Origin: Dacryopinax spathularia
Lineage: Eukaryota; Basidiomycota; Dacrymycetes; Dacrymycetales; Dacrymycetaceae
Direction: 5' to 3'
Assembly (NCBI GenBank): GCA_037974965.1
Contig: JBBPFI010000001.1
Coordinates: 2,108,001 to 2,172,000, forward strand
DNA length: 64,000 nucleotides
Shown: piece by piece, positions 7,437 to 33,561 of the stretch
Layout of the letters: every line of letters begins with the position of its first letter
Numbering within the stretch: position 1 is the first letter of the stretch
Notes under the pieces: generated by a model
Seen by the model: the letters and a program-made list of their open reading frames with translations, nothing else
Databases searched by the model: none
Told to the model about the DNA's origin: nothing
Program-made: the position numbers and the translations under genes

Positions 7437-7786
7437 CGACTGGCATGGTCGTTCAAGCACCATTCGTGCAGGCCTAGTTGATCTGGTTCTATCCCAAGCG
7501 CGGGCGCCCGGATGGAAAGGACCAGCATCCAGCAAGAAGTTATCCGCTGATTGGTACGAAAGGCGTGGCCGTAAATCCGACCAGTTAGCCAGCAGGAGTA
7601 GCCATAAGAACCTCGCGCTGAGTGTTTTGTCGGCGTTAGGAATAGCACATTATAGGTGGTCTTGGCACGGCGAACGTCCAGCGCACCTTGCATAGTTGCG
7701 GAGCCTTCAGCGCCGCAGGTCACGCTCACCTACTCATGCGTCCCTGGGGCAACGACCGAAGGTTCGAGGAGGCCCATACCGGAAGT
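7437..7786. other. Left flank of the Harbinger element
   Basis: About 350 bp of single-copy DNA upstream of SDR copy B. No gene seen. It ends in AGT (7784-7786), the left copy of the 3-bp target duplication. Confidence 0.5.
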
Positions 7787-9826: not shown

Positions 9827-10533
9827 TCACCCCCCCCTTAAGGTGCGATGCCCCAGAGCACGTGGTTGCAGGTGGCAGTGTTGACAGTATAGTGGTCAAC
9901 GGTGTCTCGGTGGGTTGGGGCTCCTGTGTCTCTTGCGTTCGACCATCATGGACCCAGGTACGGTTATTGGCAATGTGATGGCTTTGCTGACCTTGAGCCT
10001 AGTGACCTCGTCCTTAAGGTGGAAGGCGCGTGGGGATGTGGTGTTGGAGGAGCTCCCAGCAACGCCATGGGTTCAGGTTGTGGTGGGACGGTTTCTGGCC
10101 AGGGGAGAGACGCAGGTGGGGTTGGAGCGGTGTCGATGCTGCGTGGTGGAATGGCGGGAGTGTGTGCGGTTGCCGGAGTGGCCTAGCTGCCTTTTCTGTT
10201 GCCTGCGGGACCCATGGAGCGAGTGCGGCCCGTTTCGTGCTGAGTATGCCATCCTATTATTGGTTGTAATCGACGCTAACATCATGATAGCTTTTTGGCC
10301 AGCTTTGGAGGGCAGGCCCCAAAAATCCATCGTCGGATACCGAAGCGTTGGAAGCGAGTGGAGGATATTGACGGGGATCGACTTCGTCCGGGCATGGAGT
10401 GGGCTGTGAGGTGGTTTCTGGAGGATGGGCGGCTGGCGTGGGCATGGGAGAAGTGCTTGAGTTGTCGTCTGCAATGTCGGCAATGTGTTCGCGTAGATGG
10501 CTTCTCTTGTTGCTTGTTTTGCCTTTTGGACGA

Positions 10534-13500
10534 TTACTGGTGTTGTTGAGCACGCCCTTCAGTCCAACTGAAGAGAACCTTTGGTGAGGGAGTCGTGTAG
10601 TTCTCCAGTTGTTGAAAGGGAAGTCGTTGGAATGTGAGTGCCGAAATTCGTCCAGGCGCGGAGGGGTGCTTGGTGTGGAAGTCACGGATAGCCTTGGGCA
10701 CATCTTCACGGAGTTGTGCTTCTGGTTCCCAAGTGCGTTCAGAGTTGGGGTAGCCCTTCCACTTGACCAGATATTCCAACTTGCCACGGCGGAGACGGCT
10801 GTCATCGATACGTTCAAGTTCCCATTGTGGAACTCCATCTTCAACTACAGCAGGGGGTGGTCGCTTCTCTTGAGGGCGGCCAGGGAGATCACTTTCCTGG
10901 TAGCGACGCAGTTTGCTGACATGGAAGACAGGGTGAATAAGGAAACTGCTGGGGAGTTTGAGTCGATACGCATTATTGTTGATCTTTTCAAGGATCTCGA
11001 AGGGTCCGAACCATTTGTCATCCAGTTTCTTGGCCGGTCTTGTTGTCTTGATATTGTGCGAGTCTAGCCAGACCTTGTCTCCAGGTTGGTAGTTAGGCGT
11101 CTGGCCATGGTGGAGATCATAGAAGCGTGCCATGTCCTCAGATGCTTGCTTTAGGGCAGCCGTGCATTCCTCTTGTAGCTTGTTCATGCGGGTGAGGAAA
11201 TCATTGACTCCTTCAATGGAAGAGTCACGGATCGGTTCGGTACCCATGCGGGGATTTTGTCCGGTGTTGGCCATGAAGGGTGACATGCGTGTAGAGGCTT
11301 GAACACGGTTGTTGTATGCAAACTCAGCAAGAGGGAGCCAGTCAACCCAATCATCCTGCCGATAATTGACAAACAGGCGTAGGTACTGCTCAATCTCCTG
11401 GTTGATGCGTTCCGTTTGACCATCAGTCTGTGGGTGGTAGGCGCTAGAGGCGGAAGTCTTGATATCCAAGAGGCGATTGAGTTCTCTCATGAAGGCTGAC
11501 ACATACTGTGTTCCTCGATCACTGATGATTTCTTCTGGGAGTCCATGATGTCTCCAAACATTGTCACGGAAGAGTCGAGCAATGCCCAAGGAGGACACTT
11601 CATTCTGGGTTGGTGCAAAGTGTGCTTGCTTGGTGAGCCGGTCCACAGCGACAAAGATGGCATCATGTCCATTTGATGGTGGGAGGGAGGTAATCAGGTC
11701 TGTAGTTACGCATTGCCAGCGTCGGGTGGGGATTCGGTTTGGCATAAGTTGCCCAGTAGGAGCTTGAGGGTACACCTTGGTGCGGTTACAGGCATGGCAT
11801 GTTGTCACATAACGCCCAATGAATCGGCTGATGTTAGGCCACCAATAGTTTCTTGAGACCAGTTCGAGTGTCTTCCATCGGCCTGGATGTCCTGCCACAG
11901 GTGTGTCGTGATGAAGTCGTACAATCTTTGTTCGGAGTGCATCGTTCTTGGGCACGTAAACCTTTCCTCGGAATAGGATAAGGCCAGATTCTTCTGCCCA
12001 TTCTGAGCCAATAAGGCGACTAGTGCCAGCAGCCTTCATTTCTTCAATTGCTTTGACCACAGCTTCATCTTGGTCCTTGCAATTCCGTATTTCTCGGAGA
12101 AGATCTCGTTCAGCACCAGTGATAAGGGTGTGTCCGCGTTGTGCTGCAGCAATCTTGAACCAGTGTGGATGAAGCAAAATTTGATTGGTGTTGTCGTTCT
12201 CCCCCCTCTTATGGTCCGCTCGTCTCGAGAGGGCATCGGGTTTACCGCTTTGTTTGCCAGCACGATGGACCAGAACAAAGTCAAATCGGGAGAGGAAGAG
12301 TGACCAGCGTGCTTGGCGTCGTGTCAGCTTCTGAGCAGTCTGGAAGTACTTGAGATTTTGATGGTCGGTGTAGATCTCAAACTGGTGTTTGGCTCCTTCC
12401 AGGAAGTGACGCCATTCTTCAAGGGCTCGGATGATCGCCAGTAGTTCTTTGTCATGGATGTCGTAATTTCGTTCTGTTTCAGAGAGGCTCTTGGACATGA
12501 ATGCGACGGGGTGCCATTTGCCATCCTCCCCCAGTTGAGAGAGTTCGGCTCCAGTGGCATAGTCAGAGCTGTCTGCCTCTACTCGGAAGGGTTTATCTTC
12601 ATTTGGAAAGGCAAGCACGGGGTGCGAGGTGATGGCTTCCTTCAGGTGCTTGAATGCAGTTTGCTGATCGGAGCCCCATGTGAAAGGGGTATCTTTTCGG
12701 GTGAGGTCGTGGAGTGGCCGGGCAATGGTGGAGAAATCTTTGATAAAGCGGCGGTAGAAGTTACAGAAACCAATGAAAGATTGGACTTCTGTCAGGTTGG
12801 TAGGGGTTGGCCATTTCAAGACGCCGTCCACTTTCACAGGATCCATGGCGACAGTGCCCCTCCCAATGATGAGACCAAGGTACTCAATGGTCTCCTTATG
12901 GAATTCACATTTGGCTGGGCGAAGGTAGAGCTTGTGTTGACGGAGAAGTTCCAAGACTTGCAGGACTGTCTGACAGTGGTCTTCAAGGTTGTCCGAAAAG
13001 ATCAGGATGTCATCCAGATAGACGACCACACGTCCAGCATCAATGAGATCCCGAAAGATGTCATTCATCATGGTCTGGAAGGTGCTTGGACTGTTGGTAA
13101 GGCCAAAGAACATGACCAGAGGTTCGAAAAGGCCACGGTTGGTACGGAAGGCTGCCTTCCATTCATCGCCCTCCTTGATACGTATGTTGTTGTAGCCCCA
13201 GCGAATATCCAACTTGGTGAACCACTGAGCATGACGTGATTGGTTAACAAGGTCGGAGATAAGCGGAATTGGATAGCGATTCTTGATAGTCATCTCGTTG
13301 AGCTTGCGGTAGTCTTGGACAAGGCGTAAACGGCCATCTTTCTTCTTGACAAAAAATACAGGAGCTGCCATGGGGGATTTGGATGGGCGAATACGTCCAG
13401 AGGCCAGGTTCTCTTTCAGGAATTCATCAAGCTCCTTCTGCTCGTCCAAGGAGAGTGGATAGACTCGGGAGCCCTTTGGTTCTGAACCCGGTTTCAGTTC

Positions 13501-19203: not shown

Positions 19204-19701
19204 GTTCCATAGACGCTTGCGAATGGGTACCCATGAAACCCGACAGCCTTATAGCGCATTCTCCTGTAGAGACGCCGATCCGGTGGGGCTCCGCTTTTTC
19301 GGTGGTAAGCTAGGACATGGCGGTCGGTGTTTACGTGGCCAAGAGAAGACAAACCCATCGTCCCTGGACAACGTAGTTGTTCAGGTTTTTTCAGGGGGAC
19401 TTCGTCTTTCAGACCTTCCTAAACCAGGCCCTCCGGGAACGCCATCTCTCCTTCCCCCTTTTGGCAAGTGGTGAGGGGCTGTGCGAGGGCTGGTTTACGC
19501 GCGGGCTGCGACATGTGGCTGGTTGATAGTGCATGGCGGGTTGACAGGTGCATGGCTGGCGCGCGGCTGGTTGCTTCATACTATGCGCACTGTCTGCAAG
19601 TTTGCTACCCACTACTTTCGATTCTTTCCTTCAGTGCTGCTGCTTGCCAAAGGGTGGCTTGTGGCAGGAGGCGGGGTAGGGAGGCGGGGCGGTATTGGCA
19701 G

Positions 19702-19708
19702 TATAAAT
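19702..19708 (+). promoter_or_regulatory. TATA box of the Helitron Rep/Helicase gene
   Basis: TATAAAT, 52 nt upstream of the in-frame ATG at 19760. It supports that start over the frame's first Met at 19481. Confidence 0.55.
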
Positions 19709-19759
19709 GCCCTAGGATATGCACTGTGCGCAGCGTGGTTCCTCTGCATCGTTTCTGCC

Positions 19760-22700
19760 ATGCGTGCTCATCTCAACTTTGCAGGAGACTCCATTGTCTT
19801 CCCGGACCGGTCTACACAACCTGTCCAGGTTTTGAACGCCTCATTCACGTTTCACCATGTCGGCCATTCCTCTGAGCGGTTCCCGGATGATTGTGCGGAT
19901 CTACTGTTACTCGCCCCACCTCTCCAAGTCCTCCGCATATTCTCTCACTTCACTCTGCGCAATGTGCGTTCAATGGCAACGTTTTTCGACTGCACCCTCC
20001 CGGCACTATGCGCACGGCAGGCTGGTATCAACCGGCTGATCCATCATTTGCAAGCTCATCCACATGCATACATGAATGTATGGGTGTTCCGCGACCGACC
20101 GCCTCGAGCATATGATGGACTGTCACAAGCGGCTTCCTTTCGCGTCTCGAACAAAAGGACAATCGATTCCATCAGCAACGACAACGACAGTGCGCCAAGC
20201 CATCCCGACGCCGTTTGCGGCAGCTTCCCTCCGGATGATGATCCCGACTTGGTGTCCTCCATCATCCAGGAATACACTTCCGCCGTGCACCCAGACACCC
20301 TGCGCATGGGTACTTGTGCATCGTGTGCTGAAGCTGTTCGACTTGGCGCATTGTCCGACATACCGGTGGAGGAGGTAGACTTCACTCTCCTTCGAAATCC
20401 AACTCTGCCGAAGCACCTGCATCCTCTGGGATACAACCTGCGTGCTTATGGATATGCCGTGCTTCACCCCGCTGGGCTGAGCAACCCTCAGTCGTTGGAA
20501 GGCCATATTCAACTGTGCGCACCGTGTGCATCTGCATTGGATCGTTGTAAACTACCACCATTGGCACTCGCAAACGGGTTCTATTACGCCCACGAACATC
20601 TGCCGGATGATGTGCGGTCCGCCTTTCATCACTGTACATTCATCGAACAACGGCTGGTTGCTCGTTGTACTGCATCGAAGATCTGCTTTCGATACTTCGA
20701 TAACCCCGACAGCCGGCTGTATCATAATGCATTTGGCGGCATGCAGCGGTTTTCTCGTGGCAATGTTGTCATATTGCCCCAAGACACCGCGGAAATGAAC
20801 AACGTACTGCCACCACCTTTGGACGACGTGAAGAATTCCTTTGTCGCCGTATTTGCTGGGAAGGATCCAGTCACTCCGGAGACTCTGCGCAAGGTTGGGG
20901 CACTCAAGGCAAATGCATGTACTGTGCGCACGATCATCACGTTCCTGCTGCGTCACAACAAGGCATACATGTGTGCCACGGCCGATTTCCCCACCGGAGG
21001 CGCAACGTTTTCCCTCGCCAACTTTCGTGCTTTGTTTCCTGATGCATCGCGGGATAATCAACCTGGCGCAGAGTCATCTGTTGTGTTCCCCTTTCTCAAC
21101 GTTGGGCATGTGCAGGTGGGGGATGCTCAAGTCGTACTTGAGTCCGACGTGACTGGGCGCAATGATCTATCCGACTCTACGACCAAACCTGGTGATTTCT
21201 TTGTGGAGGCATCTGGTTATTCAACATTGGACCGTTCACCCGCAGCATTCGACGCTATGAAAGCCGATGCCCTTGCCCATTGTCTTGATGGCCGCGGCAA
21301 TTTTGTTGTCTCTGCGCCGGGTAGCAAGCCGATCCACGATCTCCGAAATGAGTACACCCTGACGTGGCTATTCCCGCATCTTGATCCTTTTGGTCTTGGC
21401 GGCTTCGATGACCCCCGCAGGCGCGAAAAGGTCTCCATGGCTCGTCAGCTCGCTCACATGCTGCGCCTAGCTGATCGTCGGTTTCAGCAAGATCCCACTT
21501 TCACCTTCGTGTTCCACAACATTCTTTGCAAGCGGCAAGCTTTGCGCGAAGTTCGGTTCCGCATTCCTGAGGGACGTCATGCAACTCTTGTCCAGCATTT
21601 ACAGAGCATTGATCCTCAGACATTCACCGACTTGGCGCAGCGTCTCCGAACCAACCCTGTAGCAAAACCACGCAATGCTGAAGAAGACTTGGCGCTAAGT
21701 GTTTTGAGAAGGGTGCAGATGCTTCGGAATGATGTTCCAGGCAGTGACGCATACAAACGCTGCCGGCGTAATGAGATTCGCTCTCTCATTTACCAGCATG
21801 GGTCACCAACGTTTTTTATTACCATCACGCCTTGCGATGTCGATGGTGCGCTATGTCAGCTTGCCATTCACGACTTCGATCCCAAGGTACTGGAAGGAAG
21901 CACAAAAGAATCTCGCTTCGACAGGGCAATGGACGTTGCGCAAAATCCAGCAATTGCCGCCCGTGTATTCCATGAGACTATCTGCCGGTTCCGCGATATC
22001 ATTTTACGTGTCGATGATGGTCCCGGTCTTTTTGGCCAGTGCAATGCGTGGTATGGCATGGTGGAAGCACAAGGCCGTGGCACATTGCACTGTCATATGC
22101 TCGTGTGGATCGAAGGGACACCTACACCGACTCGACTCCGCGCCCAGTTGGAACAATGTGAGCCCTTCCGAGATCGTATGATAGCTTGGCTTGAACGAAT
22201 GATCAAGACCGAGTTGCCGTCAAATGAAGGAGTTGTAAGCGAATACACCGGCCTGCTTCGGCCCCCGGTTCTCGGCAAGGACGACATCGATCCCAGGACG
22301 ACCATGTTCCCTGACTTATCAACCACGGGCACCACCTCGCGCGAAGTCTTTCAGTCTCATGTTGAACAGCTTGCGATTCGAAACAATTGGCATGTACATA
22401 GTGCAACTTGCTGGATTCATCTGAAGGCTGGCGAAGAGCGGTCAGATGACAAGTGCCGCATGCGGATGGATGGCACTACGCGCAAAGTCTCTTCTATCGA
22501 TCCGGATACACAGTCTATCTTACTGAGGCGCTGGCATCCTTGGATTAACGAATACAACGACGTCATGATGTTCTTATTGCAATGCAATATGGATATCCAG
22601 TTTCTTGGATCAGGCGAATCGTCTCGAGCGGCACTATACTACATTACCGACTACATCACCAAGTCATCGCTAAAAGTACATGTCGGCTTGTCAGCTTTGA

Positions 22701-25654
22701 TATACGCGTTACAACAAAATCGAGTCAAGTTTGCGCAGAGTCCAGATGCTGGTGAAGAGATTGTGAGCAGGAGCTTGGTGACGAAGTTGTTGAACAGCAT
22801 CATGGCTCGGCAAGAGCTGTCGCATCAACAAATAATGAGTTATTATGTTGGTGGAGGGGATTGCTATACAAATCGGCAATTCTGTCGCCTTCCGCTTACG
22901 CTCTTCCTCCGCCATCTCTCTGTTGATGAAGACCGTCAACCCACCAACCCTGCGCAAAGTGTTTCCAACGACAACACCAATGGCGACAATGCGCCTGGTC
23001 TGCTACCTATTACAGCTGAAGCTGACGCGGACGATGACCTCTGTCCCCCTTCTTTGACATTGTCTGTGGAACATGGCCACGTTACTGCTTCAAATTCTTA
23101 TCTGGATTACGTTCTACGTCCGGGCACTGCACCATTCTCCGACTACTGTCTATACGATTTCTGTGCATACACCGACAAGACCCCAGTAACCCCTCCGGAT
23201 CAACATCAGCACCCTGCGCACAATTCACGTTCACGTGTGCTGCGTGGCTCGTTTTTGCATGGACATCCACAACGGCTCCGTCAGCAGCTGAAAGTGCGCC
23301 GCGTGCCAATTGTCCCTGACATAATTGGACCGTCGATTCCCCGAGACGATCCTGCAATTGGTATGAACGAAACAAGAAGCCGAATCATGCTTGTTCTCTT
23401 TAAACCTTGGCGGACCATCCGGGATCTGAAGAACCCTGCGCAGAGTTGGTCAGAAGCGATGAATGCCACAGCCTTCCCATCCCGTCACAAGCAGATCATG
23501 GAGAACATGGACGTTCTCAGCCAGTCCAAGGAAGCACGCGATTCAGATCTCCGTGGGAAACGTAGGCATATGCGCATGGCCACCTTTGAACCAAATGACC
23601 AACATCCGAATGACTTACTCCAAGCCCGGGTCCTCCCTACGGACGAGAACGTGGCGCACAATATTGATGTGGATATGGACTATGACAACATAGCCGAAGA
23701 GCATCTCCACATGGCGCAAAATATTCTTACACAGGGTTCTGCCTCCGCCGTTCTTGCATCCCTGCATGCCCTACCGTCTACAACATTCCCAGCTGCGGTG
23801 CCGTCCACACGCCCAGAACACCCGACTGTGCGCCAAGTCACGGATCTAGATTCAACACAGTTGGCCAACCTGAAAAGGGAGCTGTTGTCCTGGAAGCGTG
23901 ATGCTCGAGTGAGGAGAGTTTCCTCCGACATGGCAGTTTCAAGTGGGAATGCGGCCAGCATATTGGTTACATCTGTTTCGAATGCAGATTTCTTGGGGCG
24001 GTCATGGAACAGCGCCGCGTCTGTATCGGAAGCCACGATCGGTAATAACGTCGATGCAGCCCTGCAACATGTCATTGATCAGCAGCATCTCTCTGGCAAT
24101 GAAGAACAGCTTCGCACTCTGCGCATAGTGTGTGAACACCTTACAACCTCACATCACCGCCAAATGCTGATGTATATTGGTGGATGTGCTGGGACGGGCA
24201 AGAGCCATGTGATCCGCAGTATCGAAATGCTGTTCACTCGTCTGGGCATTCGGGATTCCCTGCTACTCAGCGCACCAACAGGTGCAGCAGCTGTTGTCAT
24301 AGGGGGATACACCATACATGCGCTCACACTCCTCCCTGGTGCGCGGGGTCGGAGGGTGAATGAAAGTGAGCTACAGAAGATTTGGGCGGGTGTCAGATGG
24401 CTGGTCATTGATGAAGTCTCAATGATTTCGGCACAGCTTCTGGCCGATGTGTCACAGCGGATCACGATCGGCAAGAAAGTCGATGACTCTTTTGCTTTTG
24501 GAGGGATCAATGTCATATTCACGGGCGACTTTTCTCAACTGAAACCACTCGGCGCAAAGTGTCTATATGCTCATGATCTCGTTGACAAGATCACTGCACG
24601 GGTGGCAAACAACGCGCGTGGTCAACAGGAGCTTGCCGGTGTACTCTATTGGCGCCAGACACGTTTATCTGTCATCCTTCGGAAGAATGTCCGACAAGCA
24701 AGTGACATGCGTTGGGCAAACCTTTTGCATCGCCTTCGCCATGGCTGTCTATGGTCGGGTAACCGTGCGCACAGTGCTAGGCAAGTGGGGGTCGGCGAGA
24801 ATTTCATCAAAGGCGACCTGGACATTCTAAGGGATCGAATCCTTGGCACCTTGGCCATGAAGGATACGGAGGAGGCCAATTCATTCCTTGATGCACCTTT
24901 CATCGTCTGCACAAAGGAAATTCGAGATGCCCTCAATCTTTTCCTGGCGCAGCGTCATGCCCGCCAACTTGGTGAACAATGCGCATTGTACTTTGCCAAG
25001 GACATGTTAGGCGACAAGCAACATCGAAGGATGCGAGTCCCTGTATCTGCAACTTGGCAAGAAACGTTATGGAAGCTGCCGATTAACCGCACAGACGATG
25101 CGCCAAGTTTTATCCCGCTTTTTCATGGAATGAAGGTCATGCTCACCGAAAACATTGCGCTCTCTCGCAACCTTGTTAACGGCAGCACTGGCACGGTGTC
25201 CGGCGTGTCGTACACATGCGATGAGCAAGGCCGGAGATACGCCAAGGCCATCCTTGTACATCTGCCCACCTGCAACGATGCGCTAAGTGGCTTACCTCCC
25301 TCAACCATCTGCATTCAGCCTGTGACGAAAACCTACAAGCATTGGACCAAGGACGAGTTCAATGTGGTGCATGAGCACATCATTCAACGTGACTACTTCC
25401 CCCTTTTACCGGCTTACTCCTATACAGACTACAAAAGCCAAGGTCGCTCATTGGACCGCGCAGTGCTCGACTTGGCTGGGTGCAGATCACCACAAAGCGC
25501 ATATGTCATGTTATCCCGCGTTCGGTCCCTTCATGGAGTGGCAATCTTGCGTCCTTTTCCGCCTGATCACCTCGATGCAAGCCCCCCCGCAGAACTGCGC
25601 GCAGAGTTAGCCCGCCTGGACAAGGTATCCGCTGAAACAGCATCTTTTTACTGA
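19760..25654 (+). CDS. Helitron Rep/Pif1-helicase protein
   Basis: Single open frame of 1964 residues (2057 if begun at 19481). It replicates the element by rolling circle: the HUH Rep domain nicks one strand and the helicase unwinds it. Order by rough residue: a Cys-containing N-terminal part with ALANGFYYAHEHLP near 270 (DUF6570-like); a Helitron_like_N part with LTWLFPHLDPFGLGGF near 540 and FFITITPCDVD near 690; the HUH motif GTLHCHMLVW near 776; the two-tyrosine motif YYITDYITK near 960; then a Pif1-type helicase with Walker A GGCAGTGKSH near 1475, Walker B LVIDEVSM near 1548 and FTGDFSQLKP. The C-terminal SQGRSLDRAVLDL...VMLSRVRSL is also helicase. All key residues look present. Many copies of the GCGC palindrome lie inside the frame in all three codon phases. 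Confidence 0.93.
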   Translation: MRAHLNFAGDSIVFPDRSTQPVQVLNASFTFHHVGHSSERFPDDCADLLLLAPPLQVLRIFSHFTLRNVRSMATFFDCTLPALCARQAGINRLIHHLQAHPHAYMNVWVFRDRPPRAYDGLSQAASFRVSNKRTIDSISNDNDSAPSHPDAVCGSFPPDDDPDLVSSIIQEYTSAVHPDTLRMGTCASCAEAVRLGALSDIPVEEVDFTLLRNPTLPKHLHPLGYNLRAYGYAVLHPAGLSNPQSLEGHIQLCAPCASALDRCKLPPLALANGFYYAHEHLPDDVRSAFHHCTFIEQRLVARCTASKICFRYFDNPDSRLYHNAFGGMQRFSRGNVVILPQDTAEMNNVLPPPLDDVKNSFVAVFAGKDPVTPETLRKVGALKANACTVRTIITFLLRHNKAYMCATADFPTGGATFSLANFRALFPDASRDNQPGAESSVVFPFLNVGHVQVGDAQVVLESDVTGRNDLSDSTTKPGDFFVEASGYSTLDRSPAAFDAMKADALAHCLDGRGNFVVSAPGSKPIHDLRNEYTLTWLFPHLDPFGLGGFDDPRRREKVSMARQLAHMLRLADRRFQQDPTFTFVFHNILCKRQALREVRFRIPEGRHATLVQHLQSIDPQTFTDLAQRLRTNPVAKPRNAEEDLALSVLRRVQMLRNDVPGSDAYKRCRRNEIRSLIYQHGSPTFFITITPCDVDGALCQLAIHDFDPKVLEGSTKESRFDRAMDVAQNPAIAARVFHETICRFRDIILRVDDGPGLFGQCNAWYGMVEAQGRGTLHCHMLVWIEGTPTPTRLRAQLEQCEPFRDRMIAWLERMIKTELPSNEGVVSEYTGLLRPPVLGKDDIDPRTTMFPDLSTTGTTSREVFQSHVEQLAIRNNWHVHSATCWIHLKAGEERSDDKCRMRMDGTTRKVSSIDPDTQSILLRRWHPWINEYNDVMMFLLQCNMDIQFLGSGESSRAALYYITDYITKSSLKVHVGLSALIYALQQNRVKFAQSPDAGEEIVSRSLVTKLLNSIMARQELSHQQIMSYYVGGGDCYTNRQFCRLPLTLFLRHLSVDEDRQPTNPAQSVSNDNTNGDNAPGLLPITAEADADDDLCPPSLTLSVEHGHVTASNSYLDYVLRPGTAPFSDYCLYDFCAYTDKTPVTPPDQHQHPAHNSRSRVLRGSFLHGHPQRLRQQLKVRRVPIVPDIIGPSIPRDDPAIGMNETRSRIMLVLFKPWRTIRDLKNPAQSWSEAMNATAFPSRHKQIMENMDVLSQSKEARDSDLRGKRRHMRMATFEPNDQHPNDLLQARVLPTDENVAHNIDVDMDYDNIAEEHLHMAQNILTQGSASAVLASLHALPSTTFPAAVPSTRPEHPTVRQVTDLDSTQLANLKRELLSWKRDARVRRVSSDMAVSSGNAASILVTSVSNADFLGRSWNSAASVSEATIGNNVDAALQHVIDQQHLSGNEEQLRTLRIVCEHLTTSHHRQMLMYIGGCAGTGKSHVIRSIEMLFTRLGIRDSLLLSAPTGAAAVVIGGYTIHALTLLPGARGRRVNESELQKIWAGVRWLVIDEVSMISAQLLADVSQRITIGKKVDDSFAFGGINVIFTGDFSQLKPLGAKCLYAHDLVDKITARVANNARGQQELAGVLYWRQTRLSVILRKNVRQASDMRWANLLHRLRHGCLWSGNRAHSARQVGVGENFIKGDLDILRDRILGTLAMKDTEEANSFLDAPFIVCTKEIRDALNLFLAQRHARQLGEQCALYFAKDMLGDKQHRRMRVPVSATWQETLWKLPINRTDDAPSFIPLFHGMKVMLTENIALSRNLVNGSTGTVSGVSYTCDEQGRRYAKAILVHLPTCNDALSGLPPSTICIQPVTKTYKHWTKDEFNVVHEHIIQRDYFPLLPAYSYTDYKSQGRSLDRAVLDLAGCRSPQSAYVMLSRVRSLHGVAILRPFPPDHLDASPPAELRAELARLDKVSAETASFY

Positions 25655-25809
25655 AGTATGACTATTTGTCTTTGCCTTTCTTCCTGAATTTCTCGGCAGC
25701 CATTTTGGCCCGCCCCTTTGTCAGCCTTCCTACCAGCCTTCCTCCCTTCCTATGATTCACGTAGAAGCCACATTGCGCATAGTGCCCTCTCAGCCTCCTT
25801 GTACCACCC

Positions 25810-25817
25810 TATTTATA
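25810..25817 (+). promoter_or_regulatory. TATA-like box of the second Helitron gene
   Basis: TATTTATA, 35 nt upstream of the ATG at 25852. Confidence 0.45.
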
Positions 25818-25851
25818 TGGACAATCACAGAATGTGCACGCCCAGTCTACC

Positions 25852-26349
25852 ATGGCTGACTTACCCGAGAATCGATGGGGTACAACCCCTGACCGTGCGC
25901 AAAGTCTCTTCTTATCTCGCTCTTTGCTAAATGCTATTACAGCGGACTGGGATTATGAACGATTTGGACCTGATGATCGTGACCCACCATGTTTTGTGCA
26001 CATGATGCGCCGTGTTCAGGCACGGAGAGAACACTGGCGCCGCACACAAATTCTTCTCAATCTTGTCATTGCCAGACGGACGTCAGCATTTAGAAGACCA
26101 GCGAAAGCTCGTGTGGAAATCATCTGCAACTTTTTGATCAAGAAGCAACAAAGTACTGCGCGACAAACACAGGTCGCAGAGGGCCAAACAGAGTCGGTGT
26201 GGGCTTGTCATGCCCCACTTTGTCTTTCACTTGGCATCAATTGCCACTTTGCGCAGGGTGATGAAACAGCGATTATGAATCAACCCTTTGATGAACAGTC
26301 TTTCCAAGCCTCTTTGTCCAGCCCACTTGCCTGTACCGCATTGCACTGA
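25852..26349 (+). CDS. Helitron companion gene 2, unknown function
   Basis: An uninterrupted frame of 165 residues starting MADLPENRW, in the same orientation as the Rep/Helicase gene and 197 bp after its stop. The frame opens further upstream at 25834, but the start at 25852 follows a TATA-like box and was preferred. The middle is basic (MMRRVQARREHWRRTQILL and IARRTSAFRRPAKARVEI), so nucleic-acid binding is possible. No domain was recognised and no signal peptide or membrane span is seen. Four GCGC palindromes lie in or at the edge of this gene. It may be element cargo or an accessory protein. Being open and preceded by its own box argues for a real gene, but this is inference. Confidence 0.5.
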   Translation: MADLPENRWGTTPDRAQSLFLSRSLLNAITADWDYERFGPDDRDPPCFVHMMRRVQARREHWRRTQILLNLVIARRTSAFRRPAKARVEIICNFLIKKQQSTARQTQVAEGQTESVWACHAPLCLSLGINCHFAQGDETAIMNQPFDEQSFQASLSSPLACTALH

Positions 26350-26429
26350 AACCCATGTAATCCCTCTGTCCCGCCTTCTTAACCAGCCCAGTGGCTGGCA
26401 TCCTTGAGCCGATCCTTTTTCCCAATCTC

Positions 26430-26437
26430 TATATAAA
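26430..26437 (+). promoter_or_regulatory. TATA box of the third Helitron gene
   Basis: TATATAAA, 41 nt upstream of the ATG at 26478. Confidence 0.55.
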
Positions 26438-26477
26438 CACTTCTTTTCCAATATGTGCTATCTCGTTTCTTGCAACA

Positions 26478-27088
26478 ATGGCAAAGACTAAGCGCCCAGT
26501 CTCACCAGATCACGGCAACATTAAACGGTGCGCATGGTTAATCACCATTAATGCCAGTATCTGATGGTTTGCAGAGCAAGGGTCGACATCCCGGTGGACG
26601 AGGGGAGCGATCATGAGACTGAGCGCCCAGTTAAGCTGGAGGGTTACTCAGATGCAATGCAAGCCCGAATTGACCGCATTCGCAATCATGCGGACCATCA
26701 ACGTGGAATTTTTTACATCAATCATTGCCCAACCACTCTACGATTTGGCTTTGACCAGGCCTTTGATATGAGCTCATATGTTGTTCGCGAAGCCAAAGAC
26801 AACGTGCCTGTCAACATCTGGGTGCTGGGCCGCATCTCCGCACTGAAGCTGCTAAATGACGATGGATCGCATGTGGACTTGGCATATGTCTGCGTGCTTC
26901 CTTTGTATAAGGAAGATGGGCGAGCTGCCAAGCGCGTAAGCAACATGTACTCTGCGCCTCGTGATTGTAAGTATCACTGCTATTCCTACCCCTACCCGTT
27001 TAGCTCATCGGCTGCAGTCAGCGAACTGAACCCCTGGGGTACCATCATCGCTAGCCGATTTCAGAAGGCTTACAACTCCGATTCTCCC
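26478..27088 (+). CDS. Helitron companion gene 3, unknown function, 3' end missing
   Basis: Starts MAKTKRPVSPDHGNIKR. Exons 26478-26527, 26575-26966 and 27018-27088 (introns 47 and 51 nt, consistent phases) give 171 residues up to another clean donor (gtaagt at 27089). The downstream exon is gone, because chromovirus copy 2 begins at 27123. The N-terminus is Lys/Arg rich with an acidic stretch (DEGSDHETE), suggesting a nuclear protein. The body (GIFYINHCPTTLRFGFDQAF, then VNIWVLGRISALKLL) looks like a compact globular fold that I do not recognise. The GCGC palindromes continue through exons and introns, which ties the gene to the Helitron and not to the host. It is certainly incomplete here. 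Confidence 0.6.
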
Positions 27089-27122
27089 GTAAGTCGACTT
27101 GGCGCCCAGTCTCTTCTTCGCC

Positions 27123-27838
27123 TGTGAGGGCACACCACAATAACAAGGCTACTGCGGGTGAACAGAGAGACGGGGTAGCGTCCAGAGAGAGTGCAAGGGG
27201 TCGTTTAGGGATGACAGATAGTGTATTGGATCGAGTGCCTAGGTAGTTACAATGGTGGAATTTCCCCAGAGACCGGATCTAAGGGGATAGAGGCCCTAAA
27301 GGCTCTATATTTATACCCGGGAGCCCTAAAGGCTATCCCTTACTACGGGAGGTTCTGGAAGACCTCAGAAAGCGTCAGAACGCGTCAGAATGTGTCAGAA
27401 GACGTCAGAATGACTAGGGAATGAGTAAGGGATGAGCATAGCACAGCAGTACAGTCATCGCGTGTCAGGATGACTCCATGGCAGTGCATGGCAGTGCGTG
27501 GTGTCATGGCAGTGCATACTCAAACCTGTGCGTATGCCCGGGCCCATGGCTGTGGGTCCTGTAGCTGGTCCCTGGGCGTTTAGAATCGATAGGAAGCCCT
27601 TGGAAGATGGTGGGGTTAAGGTGGCAATCCGCCGATGGCGGCAATAAGGGCATGAGCGGCACGTCCCTGACTGGTGGCACGTCTGGCCATTGACTAGGCT
27701 TCTGGGCGGCACCGGCATTAGTCCTATCGCCGGTGATCGGTGGAGATAGGCGATAGAAGCTCTTGCTGGGTGGCCATGGGCATGCGGTCGTGATCGGGAG
27801 TCCAGGCTTTAGGGTCAAAAAAGGTACGTCCCCTGACA
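27123..27838 (-). repeat. LTR (3' LTR in element sense), copy 2
   Basis: 716 bp, same family as the LTRs of copy 1, paired with 33640-34355. Confidence 0.93.
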
Positions 27839-28546: not shown

Positions 28547-31500
28547 TTACTGGTGTTGTTGAGCACGCCCTTCGGTCCAACTGAAGAGAACCTTTGGTGA
28601 GGGAGTTGTGTAGTTCTCCAGTTGTTGAAATGGAAGTCGTTGGAACGTGAGTGCCGAAATCCGTCCAGGTGCAGATGGGTGTTTGGTGTGGAAGTCGCGG
28701 ATAGCCTTGGGTGCATCTTCACGGAGTTGTGCTTCGGGTTCCCAAGTGCGTTCAGAGTTCGGGTAGCCCTTCCACTTGACCAGATATTCCAACTTGCCAC
28801 GGCGGAGACGGCTGTCATCAATACGTTCAAGTTCCCATTGTGGAACTCCATCTTGGACTACAGCAGGGGGTGGTCGCTTCTCTTGAGGGCGGCCAGGGAG
28901 ATCACTTTCCTGGTAGCGACGCAGTTTGCTGACATGGAAGACAGGGTGAATAAGGAAACTGCTGGGGAGTTTGAGTCGATACGCATTATTGTTGATCTTT
29001 TCAAGGATCTCGAAGGGTCCAAACCATTTGTCATCCAGTTTCTTGGCCGGTCTTGTTGTCTTGATATTGTGCGAGTCTAGCCAGACCTTGTCTCCAGGTT
29101 GGTAGTTAGGCGTTTGGCCATGGTGGAGATCGTAGAAGCGTGCCATGTCCTCGGATGCTTGCTTCAGGGCAGCCGTGCATTCCTCTTGTAGCTTGTTCAT
29201 GCGGGTGAGGAAATCATTGACTCCTTCAATGGGAGAGTCACGGATGGGTTCAGTACCCATGCGGGGATTTTGTCCGGTGTTGGCCATAAAGGGTGACATG
29301 CGTGTAGAGGCTTGAACACGGTTGTTGTATGCAAACTCAGCAAGAGGGAGCCAGTCAACCCAATCATCCTGCCGATAATTGACAAACAGGCGTAGGTACT
29401 GCTCAATCTCCTGGTTGATGCGTTCCGTTTGACCATCAGTCTGTGGGTGGTAGGCGCTAGAGGCGGAAGTCTTGATATCCAAGAGGCGATTGAGTTCTCT
29501 CATGAAGGCTGACACATACTGTGTTCCTCGATCACTGATGATTTCTTCTGGGAGTCCATGATGTCTCCAAACATTGTCACGGAAGAGTCGAGCAATGCCC
29601 AAGGAGGACACTTCATTCTGGGTTGGTGCAAAGTGTGCTTGCTTGGTGAGCCGATCTACGGCAACAAAGATGGCATCATGTCCGTTTGATGGTGGAAGGG
29701 AGGTAATCAGGTCTGTAGTTACGCATTGCCAGCGTCGGGTGGGGATTCGGTTTGGCATAAGTTGCCCAGTAGGAGCTTGAGGGTACACCTTGGTGCGGTT
29801 ACAGGCATGGCATGTCGTCACATAACGCCCAATGAATCGGCTGATGTTAGGCCACCAATAGTTTCGTGAGACCAGTTCGAGTGTCTTCCATCGGCCTGGA
29901 TGTCCTGCCACAGGTGTGTCGTGATGAAGTCGTACAATCTTTGTTCGGAGTGCATCGTTCTTGGGCACGTAAACCTTTCCTCGAAATAGGATAAGGCCAG
30001 ATTCTTCTGCCCATTCAGAGCCAATAAGGCGACTAGTGCCAGCAGCCTTCATTTCTTCAATCGCTTTGACCACAGCTTCATCTTGGTCCTTGCAATTCCG
30101 TATTTCTCGGAGAAGATCTCGTTCAGCACCAGTGATAAGGGTGTGTCCGCGTTGTGCTGCAGCAATCTTGAACCAGTGTGGACGAAGCAAAATTTGATTG
30201 GTGTTGTCGTTCTCCCCCCTCTTATGGTCCGCTCGTCTCGAGAGGGCATCGGGTTTACCGCTTTGTTTGCCAGCACGATGGACCAGAACAAAGTCAAATC
30301 GGGAGAGGAAGAGTGACCAGCGTGCTTGGCGTCGTGTCAGCTTCTGAGCAGTCTGGAAGTACTTGAGATTTTGATGGTTGGTGTAGATCTCAAACTGGTG
30401 TTTGGCTCCTTCCAGGAAGTGACGCCATTCTTCAAGGGCTCGGATGATCGCCAGTAGTTCTTTGTCATGGATGTCGTAATTTCGTTCTGTTTCAGAGAGG
30501 CTCTTGGACATGAATGCGACGGGGTGCCATTTGCCATCCTCCCCCAGTTGAGAGAGTTCGGCTCCAGTGGCATAGTCAGAGCTGTCTGCCTCTACTCGGA
30601 AGGGTTTATCTTCATTTGGAAAGGCAAGCACGGGGTGCGAGGTGATGGCTTCCTTCAGGTGCTTGAATGCAGTTTGCTGATCGGAGCCCCATGTGAAAGG
30701 GGTATCTTTTCGGGTGAGGTCGTGGAGTGGCCGGGCGAGGGTGGAGAAGTCTTTGATAAAGCGACGGTAGAAGTTACAGAAACCAATGAAAGATTGTACT
30801 TCTGTCAGGTTGGTAGGGGTTGGCCATTTCAAGACGCCGTCCACTTTCACAGGATCCATGGCGACAGTGCCCCTCCCAATGATGAGACCAAGGTACTCAA
30901 TGGTCTCCTTATGGAATTCACATTTGGCTGGGCGAAGGTAGAGCTTGTGTTGACGGAGAAGTTCCAAGACTTGCAGAACTGTCTGGCGGTGGTCTTCAAG
31001 GTTGTCCGAAAAGATCAGGATGTCATCCAGATAGACGACCACACGTCCAGCATCGATGAGATCCCGAAAGATGTCATTCATCATGGTCTGGAAAGTGCTC
31101 GGACTGTTGGTAAGGCCAAAGAACATGACCAGAGGTTCGAACAAGCCACGGTTGGTACGGAAGGCTGCCTTCCATTCGTCGCCCTCTTTGATACGTATGT
31201 TGTTGTAGCCCCAGCGAATATCCAGTTTGGTGAACCATTGAGCATGACGTAGTTGGTTAACAAGGTCGGAGATAAGCGGAATTGGATAGCGATTCTTGAT
31301 AGTCATCTCGTTGAGCTTGCGGTAGTCTTGGACAAGGCGTAAACGGCCATCTTTCTTCTTGACAAAAAATACAGGAGCTGCCATGGGGGATTTGGATGGG
31401 CGAATACGTCCAGAGGCCAGGTTCTCTTTCAGGAATTCATCAAGCTCCTTCTGCTCGTCCAAAGACAGTGGATAGACTCGAGAGCCCTTTGGCTCTGAAC

Positions 31501-32437
31501 CTGGTTTCAGTTCAATGGCATGATCCCAGGGTCGGTGCTGAGGTAGTTCGTCAAATGAATCTTTGGAGAACACATCTCGATAGTGGTGGTATTCCGGTGG
31601 AACCAATGCTTCAAAACTTTCTTCTTGCTGATGACGCTTGGCTTCTTCAGCTGCCAGTCGTGTGGATGCAGTTTCTGTGGCTTGGATGGCAGGACCAGTT
31701 GGCGGGAGCCAGGCAACCAGGATGCGATCGGTAGGCTCTAACACTTCTACAGCAGGTTGGGCCTGGTCCTCGGATTCAGTGGTATCAATGGCAAAGACAG
31801 CAAGGGGTACAGGGATTTGAGTGATCTTGTTGGAAGGTATGTGGGCCGGGGTAGTGGTACGGGCAGTGCATCGGAGTGGACAGCGCGACATCTTCACTTC
31901 ACCAGTGACCCAGTTGATTTCGGGATTGTGGAGTCGAAGCCAGGTATGGCCAACAATGACGGTCCGTCGACCCAGGCTGGTGACTTGGAATGTGGTGCGT
32001 TCGGTGTGGTCCCTGAACTTCATGATGAGGTCTACTTCTTCACGAATCGAACCTCCCTCATTTAGTGTCCCATCGATATTGTATACAGGGATGGCGCGCG
32101 GTAGTCGTTTGGTGGTTAGGTTTCGGTACTTAACATATTCGGAGTCGATGAACATGCCAGTAGCACCTGAGTCAAGGAGTGCAGTGGTGGTGAAGGATTC
32201 GCCAGAGTCCAGTGCTTGCAAGCCCAGAGAGAGTTCCGTGGAGTTGAGCGGTGAGACCGAGCGAATATAGATCTTGGGTGGCAAGGGTGTTTCAGGAATG
32301 GGAATGGATTGGGTGGACATGGTTGCAGGCTTAGGCGAGGGCATAATGGCATAGTCATTGTCATTTACATCCAACTCGGCTAAAACAGCAAAGCGATTGG
32401 TCGAGGGCAATGTGTCCCGTTTGGTCGACCGTTTCAA
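28547..32437 (-). CDS. Pol polyprotein of chromovirus copy 2
   Basis: Same parts and length as copy 1 (protease, reverse transcriptase, RNase H, integrase, chromodomain; about 1296 codons). It looks whole. Confidence 0.93.
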   Translation of the reverse strand: MKRSTKRDTLPSTNRFAVLAELDVNDNDYAIMPSPKPATMSTQSIPIPETPLPPKIYIRSVSPLNSTELSLGLQALDSGESFTTTALLDSGATGMFIDSEYVKYRNLTTKRLPRAIPVYNIDGTLNEGGSIREEVDLIMKFRDHTERTTFQVTSLGRRTVIVGHTWLRLHNPEINWVTGEVKMSRCPLRCTARTTTPAHIPSNKITQIPVPLAVFAIDTTESEDQAQPAVEVLEPTDRILVAWLPPTGPAIQATETASTRLAAEEAKRHQQEESFEALVPPEYHHYRDVFSKDSFDELPQHRPWDHAIELKPGSEPKGSRVYPLSLDEQKELDEFLKENLASGRIRPSKSPMAAPVFFVKKKDGRLRLVQDYRKLNEMTIKNRYPIPLISDLVNQLRHAQWFTKLDIRWGYNNIRIKEGDEWKAAFRTNRGLFEPLVMFFGLTNSPSTFQTMMNDIFRDLIDAGRVVVYLDDILIFSDNLEDHRQTVLQVLELLRQHKLYLRPAKCEFHKETIEYLGLIIGRGTVAMDPVKVDGVLKWPTPTNLTEVQSFIGFCNFYRRFIKDFSTLARPLHDLTRKDTPFTWGSDQQTAFKHLKEAITSHPVLAFPNEDKPFRVEADSSDYATGAELSQLGEDGKWHPVAFMSKSLSETERNYDIHDKELLAIIRALEEWRHFLEGAKHQFEIYTNHQNLKYFQTAQKLTRRQARWSLFLSRFDFVLVHRAGKQSGKPDALSRRADHKRGENDNTNQILLRPHWFKIAAAQRGHTLITGAERDLLREIRNCKDQDEAVVKAIEEMKAAGTSRLIGSEWAEESGLILFRGKVYVPKNDALRTKIVRLHHDTPVAGHPGRWKTLELVSRNYWWPNISRFIGRYVTTCHACNRTKVYPQAPTGQLMPNRIPTRRWQCVTTDLITSLPPSNGHDAIFVAVDRLTKQAHFAPTQNEVSSLGIARLFRDNVWRHHGLPEEIISDRGTQYVSAFMRELNRLLDIKTSASSAYHPQTDGQTERINQEIEQYLRLFVNYRQDDWVDWLPLAEFAYNNRVQASTRMSPFMANTGQNPRMGTEPIRDSPIEGVNDFLTRMNKLQEECTAALKQASEDMARFYDLHHGQTPNYQPGDKVWLDSHNIKTTRPAKKLDDKWFGPFEILEKINNNAYRLKLPSSFLIHPVFHVSKLRRYQESDLPGRPQEKRPPPAVVQDGVPQWELERIDDSRLRRGKLEYLVKWKGYPNSERTWEPEAQLREDAPKAIRDFHTKHPSAPGRISALTFQRLPFQQLENYTTPSPKVLFSWTEGRAQQHQ

Positions 32438-33561
32438 AAATCCTCCTTGGGTGATTCTTCAGTTGCCTTAGGTGGGGCTGGGAGCGCTTTGTTGGAAGAG
32501 AGCAATTTGCCGATCTCTTCTCTCAGGATCGCTCTCACACCATCGGCATTCAAAGGTGTGGTATCGGTCGTTGAAGTGTCGGTCGCACGAATGCGGGCTT
32601 TCTTGGGCTCTGGGCATTCACGGGCAATATGTCCAGGTTGGCCACAGTTGTAGCAGGTGATCTTGCGCCCAGTACGACGGTTGGAATCAATGTCCATGGG
32701 CTCACCAGGGTGCAGGGCTGGTGTGGTGGTTGTAGCCGAAGTAGGCGAACGTGCAGTGTTACTCGTGGTAGTCTGTCGGACATATCGGGTGTTGTTATTG
32801 GAGAATGGCCGGCGTGCATCTAGCTTACGCTGCTGTCGATCAAAGCGAAGGGCATAGTCATACCATGCCTGCAGTTTCGTTGGCATTTCTGGCAGTGCAT
32901 AGATCTTGCTGACTAGCGCGCTGTTGAGGCCGCGTTCGAATTTCTCCATCAGAGCAGTATCGTTATACTGAGTGCGTGTGGCTAGCTCTTGGAATGCGGA
33001 TACGTATTCATCGGCCGTCTTCTGCCCTTGCTTGAGTTGATCCATCTTGAAGCGTGCGGAGCCTTCAGGATCGGGGTCCATGAATGTGAGACGGAAGAGT
33101 TTCTCAAACTCATTCCACGTGGTGAAGGACAGTGCAGCCGGTTTGTCGGGATCATCGGTGTTAGCAACTAGGCGGTCTGCCCATGTGCCAGCAATCCCTC
33201 CCTTCATGTAGGACAAGGCAAAGATGATGCATTCATTGGCGGTTGGGAAGTCCAATGGACGGGCAAAGAAGTTGATGCGGAGTTGGCGTAGAAAGGTGTC
33301 GGCTTTGGCACGAGTGCCATCAAAGATATCGGGTGGTGCCACAGGGGTGTTACGACGGGGCATGACTTCGAGCTGTGCAATCCTAGCTTGCAATGCCTTG
33401 AGCTCATCGGTCAGTTGTTCTTCCACAGTCTTGGCACGAGGTTCCTGCGTAGTGGTCGTATTGTTGACAGTCGGGGCTGCCTCACTGGCTGCCGCCGCAG
33501 AGACTTGAGGACCCACATCACCCATTACCATAGGGATTCCTGGGACTGTAGGGTACGCCAT
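32434..33561 (-). CDS. Gag protein of chromovirus copy 2
   Basis: About 375 codons with a capsid region and a CCHC knuckle (CYNCGQPGHIARECP). It looks whole. Confidence 0.92.
   Translation of the reverse strand: MAYPTVPGIPMVMGDVGPQVSAAAASEAAPTVNNTTTTQEPRAKTVEEQLTDELKALQARIAQLEVMPRRNTPVAPPDIFDGTRAKADTFLRQLRINFFARPLDFPTANECIIFALSYMKGGIAGTWADRLVANTDDPDKPAALSFTTWNEFEKLFRLTFMDPDPEGSARFKMDQLKQGQKTADEYVSAFQELATRTQYNDTALMEKFERGLNSALVSKIYALPEMPTKLQAWYDYALRFDRQQRKLDARRPFSNNNTRYVRQTTTSNTARSPTSATTTTPALHPGEPMDIDSNRRTGRKITCYNCGQPGHIARECPEPKKARIRATDTSTTDTTPLNADGVRAILREEIGKLLSSNKALPAPPKATEESPKEDF

Follow-up and report, generated by a model that had tools for sequence, protein, structure and literature searches.

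Why should a transposon carry the same short palindrome along its whole body, its genes included? The question is raised by the window, the 64-kb stretch of Dacryopinax spathularia DNA analysed here, in which the pattern ACNNNGCGCNNNGT has 33 matches, 32 of them within 19580-27110 and the other at 7610. The 32 matches lie in a Helitron, for which an earlier, sequence-only reading had given 19580 as the start. The conserved 5' terminus shows that the element in fact begins at 19361, and its parts are the following.

19361..27122, + strand: Helitron copy E1 (dialect A), 5' end present (defined by the 5' terminus; the right limit is the LTR starting at 27123)
19361..19389, + strand: conserved 5' terminus (common to relatives)
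19475..25654, + strand: Rep/helicase open frame, 2059 aa from stop to stop (ORF; Pfam on 20615-25654)
26564..27122, + strand: gene 2, 5' part only, product predicted to be OB-fold SSB-like, cut by the LTR element (Calocera relatives; a relative's model)

The element has a Helitron Rep (HUH) and a PIF1-like helicase in one protein: window positions 20615-25654 match Helitron_like_N (8.5e-33), PIF1 (1.3e-16) and also DUF6570 in Pfam, and no endonuclease domain fused in the manner of Helentrons was found by Pfam in this window Rep. The 5' TC terminus that is a Helitron trait is present as TCC(C)TGG[AG]CAAC at 19361 and in copies E2, E3, E4, E6 and E8, and the same six copies have the terminus CCTGG[AG]CAAC[GT]TAGTTG in common. 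E7 showed no such terminus, and its start was placed by analogy with E8; the start of E5 (L022) lies outside the analysed piece. Helitrons are expected to insert in AT, and the base preceding the TC is A in three of the six copies, the junctions being approximate. An LTR retrotransposon has inserted into the window copy and cuts it off at 27122; no 3' part was found within the 64 kb. The 3' ends of E2-E8, again with approximate junctions, read GCGCGGAGCGGTT..CTAT, where a hairpin followed by CTRR would be the Helitron expectation. Inverted repeats of Helitron2/Helentron type lie near both ends of E2, E3, E4 and E6 (5' CCTGGGCAA, 3' TTGCCCAGG), and E8 carries a matching variant (CCTGGACAA and TTGTCCAGG). 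Relatives had been expected in Agaricomycetes; the nearest protein relatives, among the best 120 of 170, come instead from Calocera (Dacrymycetes).

The carpet of the window copy consists of these sites, each an unstranded pattern match.

19580..19593: carpet site ACTATGCGCACTGT
19723..19736: carpet site ACTGTGCGCAGCGT
19952..19965: carpet site ACTCTGCGCAATGT
20341..20354: carpet site ACTTGGCGCATTGT
20512..20525: carpet site ACTGTGCGCACCGT
20882..20895: carpet site ACTCTGCGCAAGGT
21061..21074: carpet site ACCTGGCGCAGAGT
21630..21643: carpet site ACTTGGCGCAGCGT
21687..21700: carpet site ACTTGGCGCTAAGT
22135..22148: carpet site ACTCCGCGCCCAGT
22334..22347: carpet site ACCTCGCGCGAAGT
22475..22488: carpet site ACTACGCGCAAAGT
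22947..22960: carpet site ACCCTGCGCAAAGT
22986..22999: carpet site ACAATGCGCCTGGT
23433..23446: carpet site ACCCTGCGCAGAGT
23825..23838: carpet site ACTGTGCGCCAAGT
24116..24129: carpet site ACTCTGCGCATAGT
24547..24560: carpet site ACTCGGCGCAAAGT
24609..24622: carpet site ACAACGCGCGTGGT
24762..24775: carpet site ACCGTGCGCACAGT
24976..24989: carpet site ACAATGCGCATTGT, perfect palindrome
25095..25108: carpet site ACGATGCGCCAAGT
25275..25288: carpet site ACGATGCGCTAAGT
25594..25607: carpet site ACTGCGCGCAGAGT
25770..25783: carpet site ACATTGCGCATAGT
25892..25905: carpet site ACCGTGCGCAAAGT
26246..26259: carpet site ACTTTGCGCAGGGT
26487..26500: carpet site ACTAAGCGCCCAGT
26525..26538: carpet site ACGGTGCGCATGGT
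26618..26631: carpet site ACTGAGCGCCCAGT
26949..26962: carpet site ACTCTGCGCCTCGT
27097..27110: carpet site ACTTGGCGCCCAGT

The pattern search thus recovers all 32 complete copies that the sequence-only reading had counted, together with the perfect palindrome at 24976. The chance expectation of that reading, about 0.1, is close to what dinucleotide shuffles of 19580-27110 yield (n=500; mean 0.138, maximum 2). Codon-preserving shuffles, which covered five of the eight carpeted elements introduced below, gave a mean of 1.39 and a maximum of 6 in the window Rep frame (n=1000), against 24 observed, and these 24 fall in all three codon phases (7/9/8), as had been claimed. Genome-wide there are 529 matches to ACNNNGCGCNNNGT versus 422 for the same pattern read backwards, and 86 of the 529 (32 and 54) fall in two Helitrons, so the pattern is no general feature of host DNA. 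A comparable density in host DNA had been named as grounds for giving up the reading; no such enrichment was found, and the flanks of the elements hold no sites.

The genome holds at least about 28 Helitron copies as judged by Rep (34 matches), six of them seen only as 5-6 kb parts. Eight related copies bear such a carpet over their full length, through coding sequence as well, and in each the palindrome is centred on GCGC and belongs to one of four types. Type A (ACn3GCGCn3GT) is found in the window copy and one other, E2; type B (CnTGCGCAnG) in three elements; type C (AAn3GCGCn3TT) in one; and type D (AGn3GCGCn3CT) in two. The earlier picture of a single motif holds in part: relatives do carry carpets, and they do so in at least four dialects specific to families, of which this motif is one. 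Own-type sites number 404 in 89,282 bp of element, 167 of them in the Rep frame, and 0 in 30,908 bp of flank. The first lies 131-373 bp from the 5' end (six copies in which that end was found); in the seven copies with a 3' end, the last lies 88-301 bp short of it. Mean spacing is 180-312 bp and is more even than random in seven of the eight elements (p<0.02), and no clear 10.5-bp helical phase was seen (R 0.04-0.17). A scan of 16 arms in the five A, C and D elements gave, for the own arm against the 15 others, 32:0 in E1, 54:1 in E2, 38:6 in E6, 51:0 in E7 and 55:2 in E8. Exact sites outnumber those with one mismatch in A (86:47), B (174:28) and D (100:33), and the relation is reversed in C (38:49). 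Type C is also weaker in that its 38 sites are not evenly spaced (p=0.59).

Palindrome enrichment in the eight carpeted copies reaches a Poisson value of 1e-20.9 or stronger. Among the other scanned loci the best palindrome, that of L033 with its GATG repeat, stands at 1e-11.5, and no further locus reaches 1e-7. When repeated words were scanned whether palindromic or not (4+4 bases, at least seven copies), the sole finds outside the carpeted loci were that GATG repeat (1e-18.6) and weak words in L023-L025 (1e-5 to 1e-8). Different dialects have 0-3 site positions in Rep in common per pair, against about 0.1 expected; conversion of sites from one dialect to another was rejected as their source, and they are read as codon constraint. 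All of this evidence is from one genome. Viral contigs gave five pattern matches, none confirmed as relatives, and Cys-Ala dipeptides, tried as a protein-level signature for database relatives, were uninformative even in known carpeted elements.

On the Rep tree, built from 19 of the roughly 28 copies with three near-copies (L015, L016, L028) and the six partial copies set aside, the eight carpeted elements form one clade (support 100/99, midpoint root). Within it, A, B and D each form a monophyletic group, while C is represented by one element. The sister clade yielded no carpet, and among the copies seen carpets occur in one Helitron clade only. The GCGC contexts of the uncarpeted L018 and L020 show a weak enrichment of A (z up to 3.7, both strands counted).

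The sequence-only reading had held that the constraint acts on DNA and not on protein, and alignment of relatives bears this out, since within families fourfold-degenerate bases in motifs are kept far beyond their synonymous neighbours. In seven of the eight copies (L013 has no same-type partner), the kept bases in motif versus elsewhere were 17/21 versus 137/465 and 12/13 versus 142/473 in type A, and 22/28 versus 121/455, 23/25 versus 95/352 and 23/23 versus 131/465 in type B (p 7e-6 to 9e-13 over both types). In type D they were 31/31 versus 644/766 (p 0.005) and 33/34 versus 642/763 (p 0.023). Four control words in a B pair were not conserved, nor was GCGC in the sister clade in five of five comparisons (p 0.10-0.25). 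Between families, conservation was not significant in five of six comparisons, the other being L011 to L021 (11/17, p=0.005). The sites in A, B and D are shown by this to be held by purifying selection on DNA. It could be argued that base composition, codon usage or recent common descent produces the carpet as an artefact, and bare GCGC is indeed frequent across the wider clade (48-109 per 7-8 kb locus, L009-L022). This has next to no chance of being correct: neither the dinucleotide nor the codon-preserving shuffles yield the sites, fourfold bases are kept where their neighbours are near saturation, and the sites stop at the element ends.

Palindromic arms may be read as DNA duplex or as a fold. 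It is hardly credible that the sites act as single-strand or RNA hairpins with a GCGC loop, even if the fullest D-type site, AGCCT-GCGC-AGGCT, could by eye form a 5-bp stem with such a loop. Paired unspecified arm positions covary no more than expected at random in any of the four types; hairpins are thereby contradicted, and that reading was rejected. The absence of compensatory pairing fits two half-sites that are each read on their own, in the manner of a dimer bound to double-stranded DNA, and very probably the carpet is a set of family-specific duplex binding sites for a putative dimer. As regards the DNA constraint, the carpeted relatives and the unenriched flanks, the earlier proposal of dimer sites used for self-recognition stands; the reader protein and the function, whether in replication, transcription or escape from silencing, are inferred.

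Which protein could be the reader? Each family would have its own reader dimer, most probably an element protein whose specificity changed along with the dialect; the candidates are Rep, the RPA1-like protein and the SSB-like product of gene 2. RPA1-like frames occur in seven carpeted elements, all but the truncated window copy (Pfam Rep_fac-A_C, tested on E6 only), and gene 2 occurs in all eight. Relatives of gene 2 are present in Calocera, and the model of one resembles the T7 gp2.5 and Enc34 SSB folds, which suggests an OB-fold SSB-like product; a first gene 2 model was discarded (mean pLDDT 35), and a sequence search of gene 2 against solved structures gave no match. Rep, gene 2 and the RPA1-like gene occur in both the carpeted and the sister clade, and no gene was found that all complete carpeted elements have and the sister clade lacks. 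RPA1-like identity is 78-80% within B and 25-37% between dialects, and only 55% between the two same-dialect D elements; as sole reader the protein fits B, not D, and was rejected. Gene 2 was likewise rejected: uncarpeted elements have it too, and its identity within B (50-63%) does not clearly exceed that between E2 of type A and B (55-56%). Coiled-coil genes of types A-C were considered as bZIP readers and rejected: none is seen among the type D gene models listed, and for the two tested (A, B) all matches are to coiled-coil families and fall short of the Pfam cut-offs. To judge from these comparisons, the dialect is tracked cleanly by no single protein.

The same genes suggest another use for the sites, in which duplex sites recruit the element's own Rep, RPA1-like and gene 2 proteins to the circle or fork, so that only the family itself is replicated or packaged in rolling-circle transposition and the dialects bar cross-mobilisation. 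Besides the presence of these genes and the SSB-like fold, the orientation of the RPA1-like gene favours this: it is antisense to Rep in all seven carpeted elements in which it remains, and runs in the same direction as Rep in six of six sister copies (paired by proximity, L014-L016 being near-copies), a change of orientation on the same branch as the carpet. D-type clusters with matching site spacing, at least three, at C1:2268-2280k, C2:94-99k and C2:1457-1461k, also hold an RPA1-like gene, with no Rep or gene 2 detected. However, SSBs bind single strands, and the symmetry of the sites and the independence of their halves point to duplex. Moreover, these genes are also present in uncarpeted sisters, one of which exists as three nearly identical copies (99.3-99.9%), so replication needs no carpet. 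A role of the carpet in replication is on the unlikely side, though to be taken seriously. A host-encoded factor, either an exploited activator or a silencer, is an improbable reader. The lack of a carpet-specific element gene among the type D models listed speaks for it; against it, purifying selection keeps the sites, so they benefit the element, whereas under a silencer selection would act to remove them; and four sibling types in one genome would need four host specificities.

Returning to an element-encoded reader, the dimer, bound every 180-312 bp on average, would coat the whole element body as a mark of self-recognition. The least certain step is the benefit: most likely it would lie in an element that escapes silencing by CpG methylation and stays open and active, the effect that VANC has on VANDAL elements; divergence of the dialects would then prevent cross-activation of sibling families. 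The host genome has a cytosine-methyltransferase domain (matches at C7:158-164k) and four Tet_JBP matches below the curated cut-off, all outside the carpeted elements; no methylation literature naming Dacrymycetes was found. Observed/expected CpG at codon junctions is 0.61-1.02 in carpeted elements versus 1.11-1.25 in the sister clade, and is equally low (0.93) in the uncarpeted distant copy L026. The TpG/CpA excess is strong in A and D with the motif CpG kept, and CpG is weakly low in B and C. Protection from methylation by a bound protein might be expected to give less CpG decay, not more, which tells against anti-silencing. Sites that are palindromic, CpG-centred and sharply defined could also recall a restriction-like guard, with an element enzyme modifying the sites to protect them from a cognate nuclease, or the sites being cut by one. 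This is very improbable, as the few element proteins tested by Pfam have no methyltransferase or extra nuclease domain and the methyltransferase matches are the host's. For the explanation as a whole, an element-encoded chromatin role included, the chances appear about even.

Many-copy motifs are known from other transposons. The plant Spm TnpA and Ac transposase proteins bind many subterminal copies of a short motif; those repeats are confined to the ends, whereas the carpet covers the whole body. In the available part of the work on Arabidopsis VANDAL elements, which are MULEs (PMC5735166), short family-specific motifs are bound by the element's VANC protein, and binding and demethylation were shown experimentally. 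There too sibling families carry many copies of their own motif, the motifs differing by few bases and the effect being confined to the family. However, the VANC motifs as printed there are not palindromic and lie in non-coding tandem repeats, whereas the Helitron sites, known here from sequence alone, are palindromic, in no tandem array, and spread evenly through coding sequence. The DNA uptake sequence of Neisseriaceae, in the portion of PMC3630211 consulted, is a dispersed short motif with a common core and lineage-specific spellings that follow phylogeny and act as a barrier. The carpet likewise has a core, GCGC, common to all four types, and its types track the Rep tree, but it belongs to a eukaryotic transposon rather than to bacterial genomes and DNA uptake, is a palindrome, and occurs about once per 200 bp. 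Fungal Helitrons carrying TET/JBP have been proposed, in the accessible text of PMC12730594, to escape methylation-based silencing by means of an enzyme; the Tet_JBP matches of this genome are not in carpeted elements. The Rep/helicase of the carpeted elements is of the same superfamily as those of Helentrons, described with RPA and subterminal inverted repeats (PMC4067079), and of Pleurotus HELPO1/2, with no RPA reported in the RepHel ORFs (PMC4289320); the sections of both papers at hand describe no dispersed motif.

Taken together, it is possible, at slightly less than an even chance, that the elements of this clade inscribe their own genes with a code for self-recognition, which has a common GCGC core and arms that differ, either in the base at one symmetric position (C, A or G) or by being shortened. 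The whole length would be re-tiled when the spelling changes, the sites held against synonymous drift, and each dialect read only by its own element-encoded dimer, isolating families in the way that DNA-uptake dialects isolate bacterial species. To judge by the open-licence papers listed, this would be the first transposon with a selected binding code, specific to its family, that runs all through its coding sequence. The dialects amount to a natural series of DNA-binding specificities in the course of diverging, and they may account for the separation of sibling elements that inhabit the same nucleus. With four dialects, three candidate reader genes and hundreds of mapped sites, the question of how Helitrons tell self from non-self and resist silencing becomes directly testable.

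The sequence-only reading had 32 complete copies of a two-fold symmetric motif covering the Helitron of the window, and this is borne out as worded. The motif, ACNNNGCGCNNNGT, has 33 matches in the window, 32 of which lie within 19580-27110, where dinucleotide-preserving shuffles (n=500) yield 0.14 on average and never more than 2. The Rep frame holds 24 of the sites, spread over the codon phases as 7, 9 and 8, far above the mean of 1.39 and maximum of 6 in codon-preserving shuffles (n=1000). The features of the carpeted element (E1) and of the insertion that cuts it are as follows:

Window 19361: conserved 5' terminus of the Helitron, placed by terminus conservation.
Window Helitron: Rep/helicase with the domains Helitron_like_N, PIF1 and DUF6570.
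Window 26564-27122: first part of gene 2, an SSB-like gene after Rep, interrupted by an LTR retrotransposon.
Window from 27123: the LTR retrotransposon inserted in gene 2, whose direct repeat (about 700 bp) starts at 27123 and recurs at 33640.

The rest of the window yielded no 3' end of the Helitron, no later exon of gene 2 and no RPA1-like gene. The retrotransposon has a pol-like frame (28547-32458, minus strand, named by eye), and an open frame of 188 aa between Rep and gene 2 (25783-26349) carries carpet sites and has no Pfam match. Where both ends of a relative were seen, its length is 11.5-12.2 kb; the relatives have Rep and gene 2 plus an RPA1-like gene in antisense orientation. The RPA1-like protein of E6 matches Rep_fac-A_C (1.7e-9), with related frames in E2-E8, and coiled-coil genes are present in types A to C. 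Gene 2 is found in the window element and seven other carpeted elements; its database relatives are from Calocera only (9 proteins), and a Calocera relative models as a predicted OB fold, like phage SSBs. The top Rep relative, among the best 120 of 170, comes from Calocera cornea (a partial protein, 60%), and these matches suggest that a dacrymycete is the probable host.

A Rep search of the genome gave at least 34 matches, or about 28 copies. In a scan for enriched palindromes covering 30 loci and one chromovirus stretch, eight loci (E1-E8) showed strong enrichment, and the other scanned loci and the chromovirus stretch showed none comparable. Their sites differ in arm spelling, by locus of the palindrome scan:

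Type A, ACn3GCGCn3GT: L009 (the window copy) and L010.
Type B, CnTGCGCAnG: L011, L012 and L022.
Type C, AAn3GCGCn3TT: L013.
Type D, AGn3GCGCn3CT: L019 and L021.

Across the eight elements, 404 own-type sites fall within 89,282 bp of element, against 0 in 30,908 bp of flank. When the 16 outer dinucleotide arms of N3-GCGC-N3 were compared in five elements of types A, C and D, the own arm accounted for 32/32, 54/55, 38/44, 51/51 and 55/57, so one symmetric base is all that separates these three dialects. The B pattern matches 30 and 26 times in the two D elements, with 24 and 21 of these inside their own D sites; remaining cross-type matches number 0-4 per element. In a midpoint-rooted Rep tree of 19 copies, the carpeted elements form one clade (100/99), in which A, B and D are one branch each and C is represented once. 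For the sister clade (L014, L017, L018, L020), the palindrome scan showed no carpet. L014, L015 and L016 are uncarpeted, near-identical Helitrons (99.3-99.9%) that carry Rep and gene 2 along with a co-oriented RPA1-like gene; they probably represent a family that was active recently.

Within families, fixed motif positions are more conserved than their flanks (A, 0.68 vs 0.49; B, 0.83-0.95 vs 0.55-0.65; D, 0.95-0.96 vs 0.73-0.74). The suggested comparison with synonymous neighbours came out the same way in all three families. At fourfold-degenerate Rep sites, motif bases were kept at 17/21 vs 137/465 and 12/13 vs 142/473 in A, at 22/28 vs 121/455, 23/25 vs 95/352 and 23/23 vs 131/465 in B, and at 31/31 vs 644/766 and 33/34 vs 642/763 in D. 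Between families, conservation at fourfold sites was not significant in five of six comparisons; the remaining one kept 11/17 (p=0.005). Neither sister-clade GCGC (5/5 comparisons) nor four control words in a B pair showed conservation. Family members have in common 10/32 sites in A (E1 being truncated), 39-42 of 54-64 in B and 43/51 in D. Site density is 3.47 per kb in Rep vs 5.77 per kb elsewhere in the elements, thus the protein frame lowers density without barring sites.

Mean spacing is 180-312 bp and more regular than random in seven of eight elements (p<0.02), the exception being E6 (p=0.59), with no clear helical phase. In no type did paired unspecified positions match above the expectation from independent shuffling, which contradicts a hairpin reading and supports two half-sites that would each be read independently on duplex DNA. 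Sites that match exactly exceed those with one mismatch in A (86:47), B (174:28) and D (100:33); in C they are not in excess (38:49). Few sites have a decayed central CpG (A 2, B 4, C 3, D 2).

Codon-junction CpG (observed/expected) is 0.61-1.02 in carpeted elements vs 1.11-1.25 in the sister clade, a deficit that persists with near-sites masked. TpG and CpA are in excess, strongly in A and D and weakly in B and C, and the combined picture resembles deamination at methylated CpG. However, the uncarpeted, distant L026 has 0.93, against a simple carpet-CpG rule. Host DNA_methylase matches lie above cut-off at C7:158-164k. TET/JBP-bearing fungal Helitrons are known (PMC12730594); the four Tet_JBP matches in this genome are all below cut-off and outside carpeted elements.

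Sites also occur elsewhere. D-type clusters favouring AGGCTGCGCAGCCT, with matching site spacing, lie at C1:2268-2280k, C2:94-99k and C2:1457-1461k; an RPA1-like gene is present in each, Rep and gene 2 were not detected, and they are likely non-autonomous carpeted copies. At C3:1334538-1336763, outside every listed Rep copy, at least five CTTGCGCAAG occur in 2.2 kb with one strict A-type site among them. CTTGCGCAAG includes a putative C/EBP-type word, TTGCGCAA. At C10:884049-885116 a pair of strict A-type sites, separated by 1 kb, lies away from listed Rep copies. At L045 a second Helitron-like 3' terminus, TTGTCCAGGTTCGCGCGGAGCGGATGACTAT, about 360 bp beyond the 3' end of E5, is probably a neighbouring or solo end. 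E7 and E8, the two D elements (L043, L044), have 87% DNA identity along most of their length. The RPA1-like N-terminal region (E7 ~9950-11100) does not align to E8 as DNA, and its protein identity is 42-45%, as would be seen after exchange or under fast evolution; this domain appears doubled by eye.

Among the matches listed in literature searches, all open-licence papers, none was relevant to such a feature in Helitrons. The dialect structure resembles that of DNA uptake sequences (PMC3630211). The main rival explanation is that the sites serve self-recognition in replication. The best account is that the carpet is a body-wide self-recognition mark for a putative family-specific dimer. This dimer would most likely be encoded by the element and, by analogy with VANC, the anti-silencing protein of VANDAL elements (PMC5735166), would most likely act on chromatin against silencing.
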